A DNA stretch of 64,000 nucleotides, taken from Marchantia polymorpha subsp. ruderalis. Lineage: Eukaryota; Streptophyta; Marchantiopsida; Marchantiales; Marchantiaceae. The DNA lies in contig AP031358.1 in NCBI GenBank assembly GCA_037833965.1, forward strand, positions 3,914,001-3,978,000, read 5' to 3'. Below are positions 4,368 to 60,110 of this stretch, piece by piece; within the stretch, counting starts at the first letter, position 1; each line of letters begins with the position of its first letter. Position numbers and translations under genes: made by a program. The notes beneath the pieces were generated by a model. That model was not told where the DNA came from, did no database searches, and saw only the letters and a program-made list of their open reading frames with translations.

Positions 4368-6551
4368 TTACTCGCAACAATCTAGGTCCTGGTTAAAGCG
4401 CAAATAGAGGAGGGCGTTGAGTGTGCTGAGATTCAACAAGCTACACTTTTCATTGCGCGTGTTGCTGACACTTAAGAATGTACATTCTGACATGGAACTT
4501 GAAGTTGAAATACAGAGTATCGCTCGAATAGCCCGAGCCAAAATTGGATATTTGGTAGACATTAGTCGCCACCATGGAAGCAGGCCGACGTCATGCTTAA
4601 TATCGCCATCAGATCGGGCTTGCTTCCGGGTGTCAAGCTGCAATAGAATAACTTTGTCATTCTTGAAAACCTTGAGTAGCCGATATTCAGCCAATTCGGC
4701 ATCGATCGAGGCTTCAAGCTGGAAATCTTTGGCTTGCGCATCATGATCTTCAACTAATTCATTATCCTCAGAGTCGTCTCGATTCGGGCCAAAGTTAAGA
4801 ACTACGGTGCGTGGACTCTTGACGCAATTTGTCTTGACCACTGAAGGATGTTTGCCACCAGACATGGACAGCACTCGCTGCTTTGGTGCTTCAACCTTGC
4901 GCATAATGTCCTTGATATAAACATGACATTGGTCAATCAGCTGTTGACTGAAGCCATAGTCTTTCAGGCAGTTCTTTTACAGCGGATCGAGGTATGTGGC
5001 GGCGGCGTGGAGAGTCTTGAGGACAGATTTGAGCTGATAGATCAACAACTTCTTGATGGGGACAATATTTTCACTGTCAGCAGAAATTGTCATGTTTTCA
5101 CCGTTGACGCCGTCCACGGTGACGGGTTCATCACACGGGTGAAGATGGGTCATAAGTTTGGCCAGCCATATATCGAGGAAATGGAGAGTTGGCGTATTGA
5201 ATGGCTCTAGGGACTTGCTAGCCAACTTGAAGTAGTCCAACAATTGTATGAGCTCTTCGAGCACCTCAGCGAAGATCTTCTCGACACGATTCTCTTGTTT
5301 CTTCTTTTTCAACAAGTTGATGGCTTCATCAAGTTTAGCAGCCATAGACTGAAGCATGATAAAAAAGACCGTCAGAACGTGTTGGCACGTCTTGCTTCAT
5401 CTTATTCTTCAGTTCTTGTTCAGATACGTCTACTTCATGTAGGTGACAAACGCCCTCAAATCATCGATCATATCAAAGACAATCTCGCTCTTGTCGTAGA
5501 AGATATATGTAAATGGATATTTGATGTCGTCCATCACAAGCGTATGCATCCTCAACACATAGCTAATGCAAGTCGAAATGCGATGGCAAAAGCACAAATC
5601 CACCTCGAATTGCGATGACATGCCTTTTGCACCCGTATTGTTTGACGCTGCATCGGATTTGACAACCACCTGCCACTTCGCCGCTTAAACCGTAACATTA
5701 TCATCCTTTCAAGATACGAAAGGGCGGATACTATTAACAAAGTCACAATGAATTGTTGACAGGATGTGACTTGTGCCTTCACTAAACGCATCACATGACA
5801 CGACTTGGACATGCAAGACAAAATAGTCGTTAATCAAGTGCATGGTGTCTACATTGTATGCCATCTGTGTGACATCGTCGGTCTAAATGTTTGTAGAAAA
5901 TGCAGCACGTCCACTATACTTGAAGTGATTATGCAAGATGACATGAAGCTTGACGATGTCTCTATCAAAACGGTCCATAATCTTGCGCTTTACGGTATGT
6001 CGGGACTAGAGCAAGTCATTGGCGAAAAGCGGTGTCTTGCTCGCAAAGCCGATATCCAAGGCTGTATGGGTAACATTTTTGAATCCCACGCCTTCCACAA
6101 TCGCTAACAGACGCATGTCCCACGGACTCTAGTTCATTATGGAATTGTTCATACTGGCCTTGACGAAATCAGTTGGCAATCCATGTTTGGTACCCCAAAC
6201 GAGTAAGCTGCTTGAATTAGCTGCAATAGCCATACGCGAGCATGATCGGACACTCATTGATGATGTGTCATCTCTATAATTGTATATGTAGATTGTGAAA
6301 CAAGTGGGATTGATGCATGCCCACAAGTACACCTTCTTGACTCATGACTTTCCATTCACTTTCACTGGTACCTCGAGTCACACCCACTCGCCATTGGCTT
6401 TCTTTACTACTTGACCCATGTGTTGCCACAGCTTATTGCTGGATGGTCGAGTCTTCAACGTAAACGAAATCACCTGATGCTTAAGGCTTTCGGTGCTCAA
6501 ATCACTGACTATTTTCTTCTTTGCGTCATCCAACGACTCGAAGCACCCCAT
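4368..6551 (-). pseudogene. Degenerate hAT-family transposase
   Basis: Reading the minus strand from an ATG at 6551, successive conserved pieces occur in different frames. First is a BED-finger-like N terminus (SSNKLWQHMG followed by WACINPTC). Next, at 5669-5430, is a CFCHRISTCISYVL block like the CxxH core of hAT enzymes. A helical segment follows at 5357-4977. Last, at 4904-4368, is the hAT C-terminal dimerisation domain with WWRLMSTKYPILARAIRAI, then SSMSECTFLSVSNTRN and LLNLSTLNALLYLRFN. Stops and frameshifts interrupt the frame several times, so it cannot encode an active enzyme. A short direct repeat, TGCAGCAATA(A/G)TG, occurs at 4112-4124 and 6801-6813 and may bracket the element. Terminal inverted repeats and an 8-bp target duplication were not found. 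Confidence 0.8.
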
Positions 6552-29818: not shown

Positions 29819-30514
29819 AATCTTCCATCAGATACTTCGCCTCCGAGCTTCTGGATCCTCTCTTCCTTCGGTGCCCCTCCCTCCCTGCCTCCCTCCCTGC
29901 GGACGATCTGTCCAATTTCCGACCGTCCCAACATCGCCGATCAGTCTATGGACATACCACAGTAGAGGCCTGCCCGGACTTTCTCAACTGCGGATGCCAC
30001 CGCCGTCGTTGTCTAACGACGTTACGTGATTTCACGTAGTTTCTCACACTTTTGTCGTGGTAAGAAATCACAATCCAATGGATTGAGGATTACATTACAG
30101 TTGGAAAGAGATGGTCGGAAGAATGAACGGCTTCCGCAGTCTGGAGACGCAGTTGTCAGTTGAGAGACAATCGAAAGTCGAGATAAAAGCTGACAGTCGA
30201 GGTTTGGGGAGAAGAAGGAATGAACGAAAGACGAGAGACAACTCAACGTCGTAGTTGGAAATCAGAATTTTCTTTCGGTCTGCAAAATGATCATATGAAG
30301 AGAACCAAAGTGGAATGGAAGGTAGAAAAGAGCCGCATTCAATGCAGCTAAAGTTAATGAATGCTTCGAAGATGAAGCGAAAATAAAGCAAGGGTTGTAA
30401 CAGTTTCCGAGGAAATCAATCAATAAGGTTCGATAATGACGAGAGATATGTCATCCTTTGTATCACACGTGTAATTACATTTCAATCTTCAAATTAATTC
30501 AAACATCATACTAA
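29819..30514. other. COA6 upstream region
   Basis: Promoter side of COA6. The plus strand shows a CCCTCCCTCCCTGCC-type pyrimidine tract at 29873-29900. No TATA box was obvious. From 30010 to 30514 the DNA is mixed and then AT-rich, with small minus-strand ORFs (30022-30391) that match nothing I recognise. Confidence 0.35.
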
Positions 30515-32149
30515 AGAGTTAAACCTCCCAATAATGACATACATTGTTTCTATAGTTTTATGTCAATATTGGCACGTGTCATTTTTAATCTGTTTAAATA
30601 TAGATCTACATATTTGTCGAAATGATTTTTTTTTTCTAGTTTCCAAGATATTTCTTGAGCAATTAGAGAGGCACTTTGATAAACAGAAGCTATTTTGACT
30701 GGCTGAATTAAGGTATTAGTGCCTTCCGGGCCTCCTTCGTTGGAGGGAGTAACGCTTGACTCTGAAGCACTCGTGAACACCGTGCGACGAAACTCAGCCG
30801 AAACCCATGCTATGGTTCCTGCGGTCTGTTCCCGCTACAGGTTAGGGGTAAGGCCGTGCGATAATCTGTTAACCTTCGCTGATCCAAACGCGCTCTGCCG
30901 AGGCGCACACTAAAAACGTTCCCAAAACCTACAGCAGCTCCCGCTAAAGCAATGGTACCTGCTCCTGCTCCAATTAATATTGCACCTTCTAGCATAACCG
31001 TTTACTTTTGTTTTTGTCAAAACAATGACCATTCATGGCTGATCAATAAAAATGCAGCCAAACTAAAAACAACCCGAACCCTTATGGCCCAAAGGAGGGG
31101 GGGTGGGGGTTGTCACTCACGCAAGGTGGGATAATATTTAGTGTATCACGTGGATACATTCATATTGCATGTTCAGCAGATCCTGGATACATTCATAGCT
31201 GTTCATTTGACGGTTCAAATTTGAATTTACATCAACAATGATCAATGAAATTACAATTATTTGATATTCACGATAAGAAGATTTCTTTACTTGCCTGTAT
31301 ATCAACAATTTCTACTATATAAGCTTTTTAAGATTTATGTTCTTTACTGTATATATAAGATTTTTACTACTCAAAGAATTACATGGCTAAATCGAGAAGT
31401 AATTTTTCTCGTTTGAGAAATATTAGGAACCAATTCTGCTTGGTAAATTTTGCAAAACTATCTAGATTACAATAGTGGTTATAATCAACATGAATATCAA
31501 TTGTCAAAATTAAATTTTTATTTTTCCTTATATGACTCAGAAATTTGAGCTGGTTGAAGAGCCCAAGATTCTAGTTGAAATTGAATTTTTCAATTTGTCC
31601 CTTATATGATTCGGTTTATCTCAACACAAAGTGTTTGGATCACAATGAGCACTAACGCCACCCTGGAACAACCTTTCTACAAATGATGTGCAAAATGATA
31701 TCAATTTAGTTAAGATATATTTCATCACGAAATTCAGATTCACACTTCATTAACTTATGCCCCGAGCATAAAATCAGAACATCCACGTATTTCTGGGACC
31801 TGTCTTGTTAGTCATATATTTGATGTTTGTCAAGGAAAAGTAGCAGATGATAACAAGAGCAGTTAACATTTGACGCATTCAATCTTCTCATAAATTAGTT
31901 ACAATCATGATTCAACCTCAATGGAAGCATAGAAAAAAAATATAATTTTGCCGGATACTTTCGATAATTATGATAGTCATTAAAGCTCCACCATGTCACT
32001 ATTGAATCTTCTCATGTCACTATTGCCAATAGTGACGTAGGTTTCTTATCGAACAGATTTATAAGTTAAAATTAATGATTTAACACTTTAATGTCACTAA
32101 TGGGAGGATGTCATTCATAGGAGGTGACACTATTGGGAGGTTTAACTCT
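30515..32149. mobile_element. TIR-bounded DNA element of about 1.6 kb containing mitochondrial sequence
   Basis: AGAGTTAAACCTCCCAATAA begins the left end at 30515. The right end at 32125-32149, reverse-complemented, begins AGAGTTAAACCTCCCAATAG; the two match at 23 of 25 positions. Subterminal GTCACTATTG-type motifs recur at about 31995, 32014, 32090 and 32125. One is a near-palindrome, GTCACTATTGCCAATAGTGA. No transposase is recognisable inside, so it is non-autonomous. A target-site duplication could not be fixed because similarity may extend a few bases beyond the 25-bp terminus. The left third is occupied by mitochondrial atp9 and group II intron sequence. Superfamily is undetermined. Confidence 0.6.
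30600..31135 (-). pseudogene. atp9: Nuclear mitochondrial insertion (NUMT): atp9 exon 1, its upstream region and group II intron start
   Basis: Minus strand 30995-30909 encodes [20 protein letters not shown] followed by AVGFGNVFS, the N-terminal 29 residues of F1Fo ATP synthase subunit 9. Immediately after nucleotide 87 the sequence is GTGCGCC, matching the GUGYG start of group II introns. It continues as GC-rich intron-like DNA to about 30720. The atp9 reading frame is therefore split as in bryophyte mitochondria and cannot be translated here. Upstream of the ATG lies GC-tract sequence (to about 31130) typical of an organellar leader. From 30720 to about 30630 the frame reads LIQPVKIASVYQSASLIAQE and then a Lys-rich tail. 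This resembles the internal part of organellar ribosomal protein S3, so two mitochondrial loci may be joined. Edges are approximate. Confidence 0.8.
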
Positions 32150-35100
32150 GTAGAGTAATATTTCTAAAATCATTTCAATTCTGTACGTAAATAAGTATGC
32201 CACATTTTTTCAAAGATAAGTGTGATTGATTGTTTAGTAATTAAGTTAATGATCAAGTACATCATTAATGCTTTAACTATATTATTTTTCAAAAAAAACC
32301 TCATCCATATAAATCCAGAAACATTCTCAATTTCTCTAAAAAATTGTCACAATTTTCTTTTCTTATGTTACGACCAATTACTGAAAATATATTATGAAAT
32401 TTGAATTATTTCAATGGGTGATTATTCAATTAAAAATTTTAATCAAATAATTTGTTTCATATTTAAATATTTAAGTTAAAAATAATTGATCAAATTATTG
32501 ATTTTGAGAAAAATCTAAAAAAATATTTGTAGCAAACATCAATGAAAACTTATAGTTTTTAAATTTTATAAACATAATTCATTGGATATATACTTGCTTG
32601 AACCATCTTCATAAGGAAATAAAAAACAGTTGTTTGATGGCCAATGCAAGACATTTATAACTCATTTCATTGATGTCACTTTAACAGAAACAAATTAAAA
32701 ACTTTATTTACAGATAACATAATGTATCACAAAAGTGTCAATAAGTTTTATTGTATAATAAGAATAGTTTTGCATTAATTATAACTAACAGAAATTAATC
32801 AAGATCTAAAATAAAAATTAAAAAGACATATTTAAGTTTGATTTTGAGATAATTAAATCATTTAGATGATTTAACAATCAAAAAATAAAAAAACCTTAAA
32901 CTGTTTCAATTACAGAATTAATTTGACCAAGATTACTTTTAACATGCATAAGATTAAATATAAAAATAAAACCTAAAATTTGAATCTAACTACTTTTGTA
33001 CATATAAAATTTGTCATTATTTGTTAAAATTATTCTAATGCCCCGTATTGATGAGGCATAAAAAGTATTATATGTGATAAAAAAACTCAAAATTTTGTAA
33101 CTTCACAACAAGATGATTGAGATGATCAATGTGATATTATATGTTTATTTCACATATATAGTTCTTTTGAAAATTAAATTTACAAATTAAATACCATTTA
33201 CAAAATTTGACAAATCTAAATGAACCCTGTTAATTGTAATATATTTATTGAATCGTTTTAAAAAAAAATTATTCTTATTCAATCCTTTCATATATATTAT
33301 TGTAGATCTAATACATTGAATGTAATTTCCGTCTATGTATAAATTTTGAACATGGAATATTTGTGTACTAAGGAAATTACTGCAACGGGTACTCACACCC
33401 ACCTATACCCATGTCACAATGGGTGGGTAATAAATATGGGCTTTGACCAGTGGGTGGATAATGGATGAATATGAGTAAGCCGGTATGTTAGAACAACTGA
33501 GTTAACTAATTGTGCTCGCGGATTGCTCCTAGCTAATCAGCACACTTTGCTCATTAGATATTACTTGTCATAAACTCGCCAAATATTTAATTCATACTCT
33601 TAATAAAATACCTTTTTGTAAACACACGCTTTACACATTACTAAATGAGAACGGCTTGTAGATCAAAGTGGAAAAAAGCAGAAGATTGTGATCTACAACA
33701 AACTTTTTAGCATATTCAACCCAATACTTAGATTTTCATTGGCACGAACTTTTTAAAAACACTTCAAGTACTCTTAAGTAGCTTTGTTTTGATGATGGAC
33801 ATGATGAGTATGAGTTGAATAGATAATGGATATGTACAAGGTGTCATGGATGGATAATGGTTGGGTACATTTGATCCATGCACAACTATGGATCGGGTGT
33901 AAGAACAGTTGTCCAAGTCCAATGCAGGACTCTAATACTAAGTCGATAGGGGCACGCTTAGATTGTTTGATTCAAGTGTAATGTCAAACAAACTGAATGT
34001 GAAACTCTTCAATGTATCTCTATGATGCAATATCATAAAATAATTACAATGTCAAAGAAATCAAACAAAAGCTTTATTAATAAGACTTAACGATGAAATA
34101 TCATAGAAAATCTGAAGAAGATGGATGTTTGAATATAAGATTTTTATTGTGTAAGTACAATATTAATTAATGAAGTAGCTATTAAAAAAGTTTGATACAA
34201 GCTCAACAAATGCATAAAACTATATGTGTTAATGTAGGATGAAGTTAAAGAAAACATTTCTGATACTTTGTTGGTCATTTCATCAAGCTTGAAGACATGC
34301 TTTCCATCTAGATTGACAGCAAGCATTGTGCCAATATCCTTATTTCAACATTTTGCAATCTGAAAAAAAATTTCATCAAGTTTATCAATTTTGAAAGTGA
34401 ATTTTAATCATCGCGATAATGATTAATTCAATTCAAGTCTTCTGGGGATACCAAAAGATGATGTTTCACAAAAGAGTAGCTTAAGTGCAATTCTGATTTA
34501 TTGGTAACTTCAGACCAACTTTAAACAATTATAGTACAATATGATTGATAACTTCTACAATATGTACAACATCAGTTTGTTTTGTTACCTACTACCAAGA
34601 CAAAAACTTCAAATGTTAGAAGTGTACATATTAATCATTTAGTAAAAAAAATTTCAAAGATCTAATAAACACTACAGTAAAAATTGACAAAAATTTCTTG
34701 CACATTGATATGCAAAACAAAAATATTTATTTGCATATAAGATCGCCACTTCTTTATTCTATATTAGTCAAGTAAAAGCAAAAGTGAATAAACAAATTGT
34801 ACATAGAGTATGTTCATTGTTGAACAATGCTTTCAAATACTTTGAATGAAGATTGTTGAAGAGATTCTCAAAATGATGATAACATTTCCTACTCTCAAAA
34901 ATCAAATTTGGATTTAGGATACGCTATTGTATTTAAGTAATTCAAATCGCTTTAGAAGCAAATTGATTTCAGTTTTTCTTCTCCAAAGTTTGAAAAGAGC
35001 TTGAGTAAAAATTTGATGATTTTAAAACAATGTTCAAGTTGTATCAAAATAAGTTTAAATTTGTCATTTTGAAAGTAAAAAATCTTTATACCTTGATACT

Positions 35101-50665: not shown

Positions 50666-53600
50666 ATGAAGAGAAAATTAGAGTGGGGAGTGATTTTATT
50701 TACGGTCTGCGTGATTTTCGTCATCCGGTTCGGGTATCTGGAAGGCCCGAGTCAGTATTTCAATCTGGACCTCTTCTCGAAGTCTTCGATCACGAGCATC
50801 AGACTCTACTGGCCGCCGGCGCTCGGGGCGAATGGCTCGTTCGGAGGAGAGCAGCCGAGGATCGCCAGCGGGGACTCGAGAGCCCAGGCGCCGTCGGAAT
50901 CGCCCGCCGCAGTAGTGCAGGATGCGGCCTCGTCGGCCCTGAGGGTTTTAGGAGCTTGGAGTGGCCTGAAGCGCGTGTTCAATCGGTCGGATCTGGCGCA
51001 CGAGGTGATCGAGGGATTCAAGGAGGGCATTCTCGCCTGGCGAGACCTGAAGAAGTATGTGGAGGAGGGCGAGAAGGACAAGGACAAGGGCACGGAGGCC
51101 GCCGCCGCCGAAGCAGTAGTCGAGAAACGATGCCCGTACTCCGTGAGCTCGACGAATGCCTCGGAGCTCGCCAGCGATGGCGGCGTGCAGTTCCCGTGCG
51201 GCCTCGTGCTCGACTCGTCCATCACCGTGATCGCCACCGTCACTCCCGCTGGCTCGGGCGACTTTCAGTTCGAGCTTGTGGGAGCAAAGGCCTCGGGCGA
51301 CGTCGGCTCTCCGCCAGTCATTCTCCATTACAATGTGCGCATCCTCGGCGACAAGCTCACTGCCGAAGCCGTCATCATCCAGAACACTTGGACCTCGTCG
51401 TCTGCCTGGGGCGAGGAAGAGCGGTGTCCCTACGTGGACAAGCAGCCGAAGAAGAATCCAGGTTCGCTGCTTCTCGGTGCATTTTGGTTCGATTGTGTTT
51501 TTGGTAAATATTTTGATCGCCTGGAGGGAAGCTTGCGTGCTGATTTCGATGGCGTTGTGCAGTGGATGGGCTCGAGACCTGCATCGAGCAGGTCGGCAAA
51601 GCCATTACATGGAAACCTCCGCTCGAAAGAAGATCGGAGACGACCAAGTGGTCCAGTGTATTCAAGGGATCGGAGAAGTCCAAACCTTGGTTTCCGTTCT
51701 CGGAGGGAATGCCTTTTGCTGCAACGATCTGGGTTGGGTGGGAAGGGTTTCATATGACAGTGAATGGCAAACACATTTCTTCTTTCGAGTATCGGAAGGT
51801 AAAGCTCGAATTGTTTGTCCTCCGCATGAATTACGCTCTAGGATATGTTGCCTGAATGATGAGGATGGACTATCCAACACAAACATTTTGCTTGTGGTTC
51901 AGGGTCTCGAGCCATGGCTGGTGAGCAAACTGCAGGTCAAGGGGGACTTGAGAATTTCCTCCATCATCGCCACTGGGCTACCGATATCCGAAAGCGCGGA
52001 AGAGGTGGCTGGAGTGGAGTTCCTGAAGGCTCCTCCTTTACCCGGAAAATCGAAAAAGCTGAAATTGTTTATTGGTGTTTTCTCCACAACCAATAATTTC
52101 GACAGGAGAATGGCAATTCGGAGGTCGTGGATGCAGAGCGACGAAGTCCGCTCGAGTGACGTCGTCGTGCGCTTCTTTGTCGGCTTGGTATGCAAATCAC
52201 AACCCAAGCAGTATCTGGTGTAGTCCACGAGTCGAGTCATGTCACTTGACATTCGTATACTCATGCGAGTGGATTTTACATCGCACGTCTGTTGCGCTTC
52301 CTTTTCACCGTGTCACTCGAGTGTGTACATGCAATGCCGTCCATGGAGAAGCCACACCGGACTACCTGACACCGCGGACATTCGTCATGAATCTTATCGC
52401 CTTTCTAATTGAGATTTTGCAGTCAGTTTTGGCCATTGCTTCGCCGTCTGCCATTAATTGGGACAACTTTCCTGATCGGATTTCTCGTTCTGACTCTTCA
52501 AACGTGCCCTTGATTGAATTCACAGCACAAGCAGGATCAAGTCAACAAGGAGATGTGGGATGAAGCGAAGACTTATGGTGATATCCAGCTTTTGCCATTT
52601 GTGGACTATTATCATCTTATCACGTTGAAGACAATTGCAATTTGTATCTACGCTGTAGGTACACCTGTGCCTATCTCCTTACCTTTGAGTTGGCTGTAAA
52701 TGTTGGCTGAAATATCTCTGCTGACAGCATTCTACCTCGTGAAAAGCTTGTAACCGAACTGCAGGGGACATCGAAAACCCTGTTACCTTCTTCAGGTTCT
52801 TCCTGTTCTGATCACGACTTTTCTGCCTGACGAAGTGGTGCCTGACGAAGTTAGAAGTTTCTGAATTATCATGCAGACAAAGCACGTCAACGCGGACTAC
52901 GTCATGAAGACGGACGATGACAGTTTTGTGAGAATCGATGCTGTGCTTGCTGCCATCGATGGGAGACGGGCCCGGTCGAAAAGTCTTCTTCTCGGAGAAG
53001 TGGAGAAGACGAACGGCCCTGAGCGCGACATAAACAGCAAGTGGTACATTTCAGAAGCGGTACAGACATCTCCACCTCCTCACAACATCCGCAGTCACTC
53101 TTGTCCAGTCTGAGAATCCCCACAAATGGTCATTCTCGTCATAGACTTATCGAAATTGAATGTCGGGTTTAGGGTTTAGGATTCAGATGCGGCATAGTTG
53201 GACCTCGATGACCTTTGCCCCATCTTTTTACAGGAGTTTCCTGACCCCAAATACCCGCCATGGGCTCACGGACCCGGTTACGTAATCTCCAGCGACATTG
53301 CGAAATTTGTTTCCACCACGAGTGGGAAGAAGGAGTTGAAGGTGTGTTACACAGAAACATTTTGAACACATTGTTATGATGACTCTAATCTGATGACCTT
53401 TCGTCGGTCAATCCTTCGGCCAATCTGTCTTTCTTATTTGACTGTCATCAACTCTTGCAGCTCTTCAAGTTGGAGGACGTGGCGATGGGCATTTGGATCG
53501 ACGAATACCATCGAACTCAAAGACGCGCAATCGAGTACGTCGATGACGATAAGTTCGTGAGCGGAGGATGCGCGGAGAACTACATCATCGCCCACTATCA

Positions 53601-54843: not shown

Positions 54844-57800
54844 TCAAACGTAATCATGAAGTCTCAGGGCATCTTTACTGTCGTGTTTTGATAGCCAGTT
54901 TACAACAAGCTCCGTTCTCGCTTGTAATTTACCAGGTCCTAATTCTGCCAGTTCCCGAAATGGCGAGCACATCTCTTCTAAATAGGCAGTGACTGCTTGC
55001 TTCACGGCACCCACACCTCTTCCCTTCGCGGCAACATATCTACCTACCCCTGGCTCATTGCTTCCCGTATGTATAACCATGGAAGTGCTATTTTCTGAAT
55101 ATTTAGCCACGTGCTCTAGCCAATCTAAGAGAGCAACTTGCGCACCACCTACAGACAAACCCCTTAAATCTAAGACAGATGTTAAACCCCTGCGGGGTCG
55201 ATTATACCAAGGCAGAAGGTCTCGTGCTTTCAACATCACGGACCGCGCTCTTCTTCGCAAGCCTCGTCTCCAAAGTGCATCCATTAATGCGTTATAAAAG
55301 GAGCGATTGGCCTCCCTATCCTTGAACGTTGCCCACTCCTCGAAGACAGACCATATTTTCTCTATAGCTTCATCCATATCGGCTTCAGGAGTCGACTCCA
55401 AACCATCTTTGAACGAAGGGGCACTGACGAGGAAAGTAGCCACCCAGCATGGTTCCCAGTCACTTGCTTGCATGGCCCTCGTCAGTGGAACCATTTCCTC
55501 CCCTGTTTCGCCCAACGCAGCGATCAAGACCCCGTAGCCTGCCACATCAGGCTCAATACCCTTACGATCCATCTCTCGGATGATGCCTGCCGCCTCCTTG
55601 TACCATCTTCCTTGTACATAAAGGTTCAGCATGGCCCCATACACAAGAGAGCCCAATTGAATATCGTCTTCCCTCATTTTCACGCACACCTGTTTTAAAA
55701 ACCATCACAGGACATCGTGTCATGAATGAACACTACTATAAACTTGACGACTTTCTTGCATATGTCAAAACAACGCAAACAGAGTGCGAACATGAAAAGC
55801 AACGCAGACAGTCCGTGTAGCGTACAGGTTCAACGACAAGTAACTCCTTTCCCTTTTATAATACGTATGCAAAATAAGCCCCATCAAAGAAAAGGCTTGA
55901 GTGCTGGAAGTGAATAGACAGCTAAAAGGACTGCGGCAATTGTCTTCAAAAACTTAAGTCCTGAAGCTGCACTGGAGCATGAAACTGTACTCATTCGTAT
56001 GTGCCTTTCGTTGAATGAAGGCCATAGACCCTGCACCCTGGCTGAGCAGTGCCAGCGTGAAGCACATGAACTTTAGGGTAAAAAAAGATAGAAATAGGAC
56101 GAAGCCGAGAAAGGACTACTTGAGAGTGGAGAAAGTCTGTATTACGATGGATTCTTTGAATCGGAGTTTTCCCGGTATCAACCGATAAGGTATCCGAAGG
56201 GTTATATAAGCCCCAGGACAAATTGCCTCAGGCTCTGGGTTTGCAAGACTAGAGAAATCATTGAGCAGCTTGGACTTCACCATCAGAGCTATGTTACGAG
56301 GCAGTTGACTTTCAACACAAAAAAGCTGAAAGAGCTGCATTCGACACAACAATTAATGGACGAGTTTCGAGTTCATGAGCTGAGGTGAGCGTGTGGAGAG
56401 ACTCTTCATGAATTTCAACCCTTCGAAATTGGACCTGAGGCGAGTGCCCAAAGAATGAACACCCAGGACGCGGAGCCCTTGAAGCTGACGAGATCAAGAG
56501 CGCTTCAAGATGAAGGTTCCGGGTAGATATCTAAATTCTAAGTTTCTCCATACATCTCCAGTTTGTATGTGAATAGATTCCGTATCGTTAAAGATGATCG
56601 ATTGCAGGGACTTCTGATTAGCTGTGGCTTCATCCTCTACTTTCGAGATTCTCTATTAGAGAATCTGGTGTCATAGAGGCGTCAAAGTTGCCTCACTACC
56701 CACAAGACGCAAAACAAATGTCACTACATCTAGATTTCTTCCAAAATGAAAGACACCGCACCTCATGTCCAAGTCTGGTCCAAGAGCAAGCGGTATAAGC
56801 GCGTATCATTGCTGTATACGTGTAAGCACTTGGAGCAACTCTTTTCTGCAGCATCTTCTTGTACAACCTGTCCGCTTTATCATATTGGCCAGCTTGCACC
56901 ATGGCACATATCAGGGAGGTAAATGTCACGGTACTTGGGCGCAACCCATTATTACACAGCTCAGAATACAGAGCTAAGCTTTCCTCATAACGCCCACCCT
57001 TGCCACTCGCTTCTATAAGGTAATTGTAGGCAATCAGCGACGGTTTTGTTGCCTGTCATTTTTACCAAACCATGCATTAGGAGCGTCCTGCAGAGACTAA
57101 TCGCATCATCTCGAAAAGAATGGTCAAATGATTCAAGGTCTAGCTTAGGAATGGTCAAACCAAAGCTGAAGCGATGTTTGTATGGACTAAGGTATAAATG
57201 TTCTACTTTGATATTCATTAAAACAAAAGATTCCTGAAAAACGAACAAGAGTAACTAACAGGGACTTGAGAACGTCAATTCTAAAGTAAAACTGACATGA
57301 CAACATGGTGCACACAATGTTCGTAAGTTTAAAATCACTGAATAGAATCGCCGTACCAGTTTGTACTCCCGAAAAACGCTGAAAGCTTGATCCAAGCAGC
57401 CAGCTTGACAGTACGCCAACAGAAGGGCATCATAGACACTTGCGCTAGGGGGTATTCCTGCAGCTCTAAGCGCTCTAAATATCTCTTCAGCCTCCTTGTA
57501 ACCTCCTGCACTTGCATGAAGCTGAATCATCTTCACCCAGGTCTGCGAAAAATATCCGTTACCTCGTCAAGATTTGTGAGCATAAAGAAGAATTCAAACG
57601 AGGGAGAGATCCAGAAGAGAGTGTCTGCTTGTCAAATTGCATCAGCAAAAAAAATACTGGTAACACCACTCAACACACATTTCCTCACAAACTGCGCACT
57701 GATATGCGACACTTCCTTGTCGGTTTCGAATGTGCAAACTCTCAGATGATTGCATTCAGCATAATGTGAGCGACTGGCAGACAATTTTCACAGAGGGATT

Positions 57801-59197
57801 GAAACGGACTGGAACATGAGGTCACACTTGAAGACAGCTTGAGCCTAAAGTTCAGACAAATCCGTCTTCAAAGCGTGAGAAAAGGCAAGTCAGTTTCTTT
57901 CCGACATTTGCAAAACACACTGCGGCAATTACCTTGCTGTATATGGTATGACCTGAGGCACGCATGGCCAAAAAAACTTCATCAGCGGCAAGGATGTCAC
58001 GAGCATCGGCACACGCTTCAATCAGTTTCAAATACGTCTTGATACCGACTTCCATACTGTTCTGCAACATACTTCGAAATACTTGAATCGCTTTTCCTAC
58101 CTGGGGGGATTTTGCTTTCAAAGCCGCAGAAATCATCTGTCAAAATCGACCGAAAAGATTCAGTACTCACCAAATTCTTAGGACGATGATGACCAGAGTA
58201 CGAAAGCTCGGACTTTTGATTTCCACGTCAAACAATTCTAGGTTAACTACGCACAAACATGGTGGACTGGGCACTACAGATCAGATTGACAACTGTACAA
58301 GAAACGCACATTGGTGATCAGCCGGATGCACTACTCGATATTTCTCTCCTTGCAGAGTATTCAGGGTAAGCCAGTGGGTTAAACCACTTGACCAGTAGAA
58401 AGATCTTCAATTACCAGTTCAAGAGTAGCACGATCCGGGAGAATTCCTTGCTTCTCCATTTGAACCATTACTTGAGAGACGTGCGAAACCAATCCAAAAT
58501 TCGAGTATGCTTCGGCCACAACGTTGTAAAACCGTAAATCTGGCTCCACATTCTCGTCCTTCATCTCGTGGAGAAGCGTGTCAACCTCACTCAGTCGTCC
58601 CTTTCTGCTCAGAACTCCGACAACCGTCGTGTAGGCCCTTAACAATGGACTCGGTTTGGCCCGCTCTGTACCGACAGAACTCACCGAATTCTCCCTAAAA
58701 CTAGTTGCACTCAGGTCTGATGAGTCAGTACAATTTTCGGGTAACAGAGGGCTTCGGCTTTTGAACACCTTGAATACATCCATGGCAAGAGTCCAGTCCC
58801 GACTTCCGACTTCCAACAAAATCTTGTTCCACTCTTCCACGCTAAGAACAGAGATCCAAGGTTGCAAAATTGCTTCCACATTGCCCCCGGCTGCGATATC
58901 TGCAATTAGGTCGAGAAAATCCCTCTTCCAGGGTCCATCCACTTTCGCAGGCGAACTAGCGGGCAAGGGCTGCAGCACAGTCTGCGATATCAATCTCCTT
59001 CCCCTGTAAACCCACCGACTCGTGCTGGCCACAGTCTTCCCATCTCCCGAAAGAGCCCTGACAATCCCAGCAGGAAGCTTCCTACTCCCGATTGCCACTC
59101 TGCCCTCGCATCTCCTCCCGCTCGCAGCTCCGAAATTCTCATTGCTGCAATGAAAAATGCTCGAAGCTACAGAGGATGCCAAATCCACCGTTGCCAT
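54844..59197 (-). CDS. PPR-SMR protein, probably organellar, five exons
   Basis: Exons 59197-58415, 58136-57933, 57542-57357, 57052-56762 and 55689-54844 join in phase 0 and give about 769 residues. The first ATG of the open frame is at 59197 (GCGATGG). The Ser/Arg-rich N terminus (MATVDLASSVASSIF...) fits a plastid or mitochondrial transit peptide. At least nine P-type pentatricopeptide repeats follow, such as PSPLLRAYTTVVGVLSRKGR, PPSASVYDALLLAYCQAG, RPSTVTFTSLICAMVQAGQ and SAYTYTAMIRAYTACSW. The last intron removes exactly the sequence needed to keep a 35-residue period (TYTAMI to VYGAML). A C-terminal SMR domain begins LDLRGLSVGGAQVALLDWLE (about 661-680) and ends PFRELAELGPGKLQARTE...VVNWLSKHD, as in plant PPR-SMR proteins (GUN1, SOT1, SVR7, pTAC2). 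Those act in organelle RNA processing or gene expression. The usual SMR TGxG is TGSN here. Which member it matches is not clear. Confidence 0.88.
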
Positions 59198-60110
59198 CGC
59201 TCTGCTCTCCGCGGGCAACCAATTCCTCGACTCGCCCTTCCCCCGTCTACATCCCCGTCGTCACCGCACGAAATTCAGCCCGCTGCAGACAGACCACCGA
59301 GATTCACCACCCACCATTGCCGGCAATCAGACCCATCACCGACTCCTCCGCCGCATCCCCTCTCTCCAGATTCCGATTCCTTTTTCCTGCCACGATCCAA
59401 TTCCTCATCCAGCACCAAACGCCTCGATCCCCACCGACCCAATCGACTGCAAATCCGACTCAAATCACTCGCTCAGCCTTCGCGAAAATTCCCAACACGC
59501 CCTCCCTCGCTCCCTCATAATCGTCCGCCCGAAAACTTTCGCTCCGCACTCGAGCTCGTGCTCGATTCCTGCACTGGCGACTCCAACGACGACCCCTCCC
59601 GAGGCTCTATCGGCAGAAATCCACGCCTCCTGCCGCTCCTGCCGTCGTCGCTGCAGTCGCGGTTGTCACGACGACGACGACGACGACGAAGACGAACAGC
59701 GACGGCCTTCGCTCGGAGGGCGCAACAACAAGATCGGGATTGCCCTGCGCCTTCTGTCCATTAAAGATTTAGGGGACGGGAGCGGGGGCTCAAGAAGCCA
59801 GCCTTCCGTTTTGCGCGGCCCGGCACCACCTTATCGGTTACGGGAGCCTCGGCGGCTCGCCTCAGCTCCGGCCGCGCGGATTTCCGCCCCCTCGATTCGT
59901 CGCTAATGTGCGCCGGATTCGTCCCAGCCTCGCCGGACGTAAGCTGCAGGCGGACGTCTCCTCGTCTGCCGAGACCGCGTTTGAGGCTCGGAGCGGATGT
60001 GGTGTGTGAGGTCGTGACACTGCTTTTATTTTGTTCTGACATAACTTTCCCAGTTATTTTCGCTTTATTCTTTATTGTTGCCAGATTTGCTTTGTAACTA
60101 AGACGGGATT
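59198..60110 (-). promoter_or_regulatory. GC-rich upstream region of the PPR-SMR gene
   Basis: Probable leader and promoter on the minus strand. A (ACG)7 run lies at 59668-59688. The plus strand is open for 249 codons from an ATG at 59157 to 59906, rich in Pro, Ser and Arg, antisense to the PPR start. I read it as a composition effect rather than a gene. Confidence 0.4.

Follow-up and report, generated by a model that had tools for sequence, protein, structure and literature searches.

The window, by which we mean the whole 64,000-nucleotide stretch analysed (G000:C9:3914001-3978000), carries at 30514-32150 one copy of a repeated, TA-flanked transposon that contains mitochondrial DNA. Its parts, on the numbering of the window, are:

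30512..30513, no strand: left-hand TA target site; a TA stands before the element in 16/16 aligned other copies
30514..30579, plus strand: left end of a non-autonomous pogo-like element (TIR and subterminal part) up to the insertion point; matched and aligned in other copies
30580..31113, minus strand: mosaic NUMT of ~534 bp, its ends uncertain by a few bases; empty site in 16/16 aligned copies, absent from 20 distinct other copies
30580..30720, minus strand: piece 1, from the coding sequence of mitochondrial rps3, at the beginning of the S3 C-terminal domain; uS3m match of 30631-30720
30716..30720, no strand: TTAGT, the 5-bp overlap of the two mitochondrial pieces, from the divergence points of NUMT homologues
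30716..30908, minus strand: piece 2, 5' portion of the group II intron of atp9, which opens with GTGCG directly after the 87 coding bases of exon 1; NUMTs L010, L012-L014 and L017 are homologues
30909..30995, minus strand: piece 2, atp9 exon 1, 87 nt and 29 aa, from its translation
30996..31113, minus strand: piece 2, atp9 upstream leader, by similarity to L010
31114..32150, plus strand: remainder of the element including the right TIR; 19 other places, not all of them complete, match it at 74-89% identity
32151..32152, no strand: right-hand TA target site; a TA stands after the element in 14/16 aligned copies

This copy has no open frame of at least 120 aa, and scanning the window for Rfam families and tRNAs yielded none. 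Elsewhere in the window lie a hAT transposase remnant (4368-4904, minus strand; Dimer_Tnp_hAT, E 1.2e-9), an open frame with a galactoside-binding lectin domain (50666-51757, plus strand; E 2.8e-9), which is possibly part of a galactosyltransferase gene, and two pentatricopeptide-repeat open frames (54844-55689 and 58379-59218, minus strand) that possibly form one gene.

The inverted termini from which the original prediction set out are real: they share an 18-base core that matches exactly between 30515-30532 (plus) and 32132-32149 (minus), as against a mean of 0.05 matches in shuffles, and a search of the 241 Mb, nine-contig genome with a 22-base terminus pattern at up to two mismatches returned 208 and 206 occurrences in the two orientations, as against 0 and 0 for the reversed control. 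An inverted-repeat search returned arms at 30501-30539 and 32125-32163 that are 82% complementary. The true ends lie slightly outside the termini first proposed, and alignment of the window copy with 16 of the 19 other long copies (L044, L045 and L048, with broken or rearranged left ends, were omitted) gives them as TA-CAGAGTTAAACCTCC...GGAGGTTTAACTCTG-TA. TA stands on the left side of all 16 aligned other copies and on both sides of 14; the exceptions on the right are L039, truncated at that end, and L040, which has GA. The two termini also occur together elsewhere in other copies of the element, a pairing the original prediction had wished to see checked, and hence the element itself is real. 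Its right part was also considered as a candidate for organellar or captured sequence; this was rejected, for that part is common to the 19 other places.

A DDE_1 profile search of the genome yielded 340 candidates, of which 150 were scored and all 150 matched. Pairing these by coordinates with TIRs among the matches listed gave C6:30035534/30037192, C4:22060205/22061863, C8:330892/332552 and C6:10556044/10557880, of which the sequence was read for the first two:

L066, G000:C6:30035000-30039500: pogo-like element with the ends of the window element and a 634-aa open frame containing DDE_1
L067, G000:C4:22059700-22064200: pogo-like element with the ends of the window element and a 634-aa open frame containing DDE_1

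These are 3.3 and 3.2 kb long, respectively, and are bounded by TA and by TIRs matching the window element, with which they share 80% identity over 191 bp at the right end and 77% over 70 bp at the left. They are 99.4% identical to each other over 3106 bases, with a further 292-base stretch at 89.4%, and the frame of L066 matches DDE_1 (E 5.8e-21) and HTH_Tnp_Tc5 (E 3.6e-6). From the TA target and the Pfam domains found in these relatives, we assign the window copy as a non-autonomous member of a pogo-like (Tc1/mariner-type, DDE_1, TA target) family, for which the 3.2-3.3 kb relatives could be a source of transposase. Emigrant is a plant pogo-like transposon.

The insertion point is uninterrupted in all 16 aligned other copies, where the left end runs into the right part as ..ATGTCACTATTGGGAGGTGTCACTCACACGAGG.. 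with small differences between copies; the window copy carries ~534 extra bases there, 30580-31113. At its left join it reads ..GTGT followed by CATTTTTAATCTG.., and at its right join ..GGGGGTTGT followed by CACTCAC... The simplest parse is a clean insertion at GGTGT^CACTC, with zero loss and zero duplication of element sequence, the empty state being read from paralogous copies and the mitochondrial sequence from other NUMTs. The foreign DNA begins ~66 bases from the left end of the element, nearer than the ~100-190 bp from the left terminus given in the original prediction. Few-base microhomologies mark every join. At the right one, GGTGT (5 bases) is common to the element and the mitochondrial sequence, the latter read in L010, with one change in the window; TTAGT lies between the pieces. 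At the left one the mitochondrial homologues have GTCA (L018), GCA (L073) or GTA (L065) against GTCA in the element, giving overlaps of CA (L018, L073) or GTCA (L018), so that the overlap may be 1-4 bases depending on which homologue is ancestral, with two substitutions nearby. Overlapping BLAST ends had hinted that 12 bp of target were duplicated around the insert, a reading that was rejected: only 8/12 bases agree, only TGTCA is unbroken beside the insertion point, and the overlaps at the joins account for the BLAST pattern.

As for what was inserted, the atp9 exon 1, its leader and the start of its intron are all present as the original prediction had read them; the insert is, however, larger and composite, the rps3 part (30580-30720) having been missed. 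By homology, we identify two mitochondrial pieces, one of rps3 and one of atp9 running from the leader through exon 1 into the 5' part of the intron, joined over TTAGT. Over 30631-30720 piece 1 translates as TNTLIQPVKIASVYQSASLIAQEISWKLEK, which matches mitochondrial uS3m of solved mitoribosomes (E 6.5e-6), entries that we take to be those of plants. Its homologue at C6:21509744-21509890, which continues into GIRIGFSGRLNGAEVAKTE, has a Ribosomal_S3_C match (E 5.1e-5) too weak to reach Pfam's cut-off, and a Pfam search of two 28-aa peptides gave no match. The exon 1 peptide of piece 2 by itself has a weak best match among solved structures (ATP synthase subunit c, E 0.19); the atp9 identity is supported by the intron start after 87 bases, where the intron begins GTGCGCC, and by the NUMT relatives. 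Piece 2 is 93% identical to L010 over its whole length; past 31113 the window departs, while L010 and L013 continue to resemble each other. From its position, the intron was assigned the name atp9i87g2, taken from PMC10012718; the excerpts of that paper considered here describe it as common to the three bryophyte clades, discuss it also in a lycophyte, and give ferns, gymnosperms and angiosperms as lacking an atp9 intron. On this ground a bryophyte is the most probable host, a lycophyte being a less probable one.

The join between the pieces bears on where they met. That a rearranged mitochondrial molecule already had them side by side, so that they arrived as a single fragment, is an unlikely alternative, to which their common orientation and the description of organellar recombination before transfer in excerpts of PMC7037861 lend some weight. 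Against it, the rps3 NUMTs L022, L049 and L050 cross the position of the join and run on in rps3 past 30720, and the TTAGT join is spanned by none of the 32 other matches to the insert in the genome. On the atp9 side of the overlap, L010 and L014 diverge left of 30716. Such a pre-joined fragment would be compatible with late entry of a NUMT, since it changes only the place where the TTAGT joining happened. As a separate observation, the point at which L010 and L014 part company lies no more than 2 bp from the intron end of the window piece (30716), which could be chance or a favoured break. We do not claim a breakpoint hot spot in the atp9 intron, as matches to the window piece cannot pass its own end; a search of the outer flanks of these two loci for repeats found nothing further save one 84% match for L014.

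Finding organellar DNA between TIRs is not in itself proof of capture; it is the sibling copies that decide. The original prediction had offered organellar capture with spread by transposition beside a NUMT landing in an existing element, and had named empty sibling interiors with a clean insertion point as the result that refutes capture; this is the state in which we found them. From the side of the element, 40 of 464 candidates were scored, and among 27 element loci the insert occurs only in two, both being the window itself; the other 25 represent 20 distinct places from which it is absent. The insert search (query 30600-31140) tests the same point from the other side, within reach of its first look: all 33 of its candidates, the window and 32 other matches, were scored, and the 42 loci covering those 32 (some overlapping, nine with only ~250 bases of flank per side) contain neither element sequence (E 1e-4) nor the TIR core. 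Capture with spread by transposition was rejected in view of the empty siblings, the 20 insert-free copies and the 32 element-free matches. Capture in the wider sense, with the element acquiring the mitochondrial DNA while it transposed or underwent gap repair and later moving it along, can point to recognisable, TA-flanked TIRs that enclose the entire insert and to longer relatives with long open transposase frames. We nonetheless consider it highly improbable, given that no second insert-bearing copy exists among the 20 distinct places, that the window alone of the 33 candidates lies within an element, and that the insert, by its decay, would be younger than the element's split from the sampled siblings. 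We also think it very unlikely that element and insert were combined elsewhere in the genome and reached this place together in a single cut-and-paste move, with no second copy left behind; were this so, the window element would have carried mitochondrial DNA through the nucleus.

Some of the related mitochondrial sequences have histories of their own. L010 (C5:22369004) and L011 (C5:22344328) are one atp9 NUMT found twice, 25 kb apart and 99.94% identical over 3.4 kb, a recent segmental duplication of a NUMT. A 67-bp scrap of atp9 intron occurs four times (L024-L027; G000:C5:16.80-17.05 Mb) in duplicated units of at least 3 kb with 97.3-99.97% identity, which points to multiplication of mitochondrial sequence through duplication, not through the TIR element. 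A 50-bp rps3 scrap (L049, G000:C2:8111544-8111593) shares 100% identity with the window; a decayed DDE_1 match ~1 kb away perhaps belongs to another pogo-like family, and a search around this scrap found no convincing TIR pair.

The relative decay of the two sequences speaks to the order of events. The insert differs from the majority of other NUMTs in 6/519 columns (5/385 in piece 2 and 1/134 in piece 1), the sole difference in piece 1 being called by a 3:2 majority at or next to a run of T, whereas the element differs from the copy majority in 81/1074 columns, of which 38 hold private bases seen in no other copy. Comparing the 38/1074 private bases with the 6/519 insert differences gives a Fisher p of 0.005, the private-base measure depending on the siblings sampled and ranging from 0.1% to 3.7% across the other 16 copies, with some at or below the insert's 1.2%. 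On this measure, the insert would be younger than the split of the window copy from its sampled siblings. Four of the five changes in piece 2 fall within exon 1, where codons read by hand give three missense changes (codons 6, 13 and 24) and one silent change. These are also pertinent to an assembly chimera: while organellar reads can in general contaminate assemblies, the five substitutions that set piece 2 apart from other NUMTs, among them the three missense changes of exon 1, are not what a fresh organellar read would show, and the shortness of the insert would likewise speak against an artefact, which we regard as having a negligible probability.

Hence, with high confidence, we propose that the insert is a late mosaic NUMT, a filler of break repair inside an older non-autonomous pogo-like element. 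The second of the two readings originally offered, a NUMT landing inside an existing element, is thus supported by the clean empty site, by the microhomologies at the joins and by an insert that has decayed less than the element. Briefly, we envisage the following course. An older member of the non-autonomous family probably already resided at the present place when a double-strand break occurred within it at GGTGT^CACTC. End joining would then have ligated non-adjacent rps3 and atp9 fragments, with a 5-bp overlap between the two and, where they meet the broken element, 1-4 common bases on the left and 5 on the right, with element sequence neither visibly lost nor duplicated; the insert would since have been drifting as a pseudogene fragment. 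The value of the locus lies in its being a readable two-fragment NUMT: as the pre-insertion target is known from paralogous copies, its three joins are legible nearly base by base. Literature searches for an earlier account of such a case gave none among the papers listed. In itself the case is ordinary: it looks like a repair accident, with no sign of mitochondrial DNA being spread by the element.

Three known systems provide a frame for this locus. Like pogo-like DNA transposons (the Tc1/mariner group; Lemi type in plants, PMC7386202 in excerpt), the element has a TA target and TIRs that open with CAGAG, and its longer relatives contain DDE_1 together with a Tc5-type HTH; unlike those relatives, the window copy does not have the 1.9 kb frame. 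Excerpts of two surveys report land-plant pogo only as Lemi, in 23 eudicots (PMC7386202), and name dicots and Selaginella as plant hosts (PMC7325037), against which a pogo-like family in this apparently bryophyte host is mildly unusual.

Pack-TIR and Pack-MULE elements contain foreign sequence between TIRs that is multiplied by transposition. The window copy resembles them in having foreign sequence between its TIRs, and differs in its organelle donor, in siblings that are empty with a clean insertion point, and in an insert that was not found multiplied: presence of the captured sequence in at least two copies would mark such an element, and we recovered it in 0/20 distinct copies (40 of 464 candidates scored) and at none of the 32 insert matches beside element sequence.

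The closest parallel is the NUMT of mosaic type. Sequence of mitochondrial origin lies here in a nuclear chromosome, the window being within a 24.2 Mb contig, and the insert is short, decayed and made of two non-adjacent mitochondrial pieces with few common bases at the joins. Excerpts of PMC7037861 describe integration of NUMTs and NUPTs at double-strand breaks by end joining with micro-identities of 1-7 bp, integrants with joined fragments from different organellar places, and co-localisation of NUMTs and NUPTs with transposable elements in Arabidopsis and sorghum; the window insert fits that description in the respects tested. There is no fundamental difference from such integrants, the target in this instance happening to be a transposon copy.
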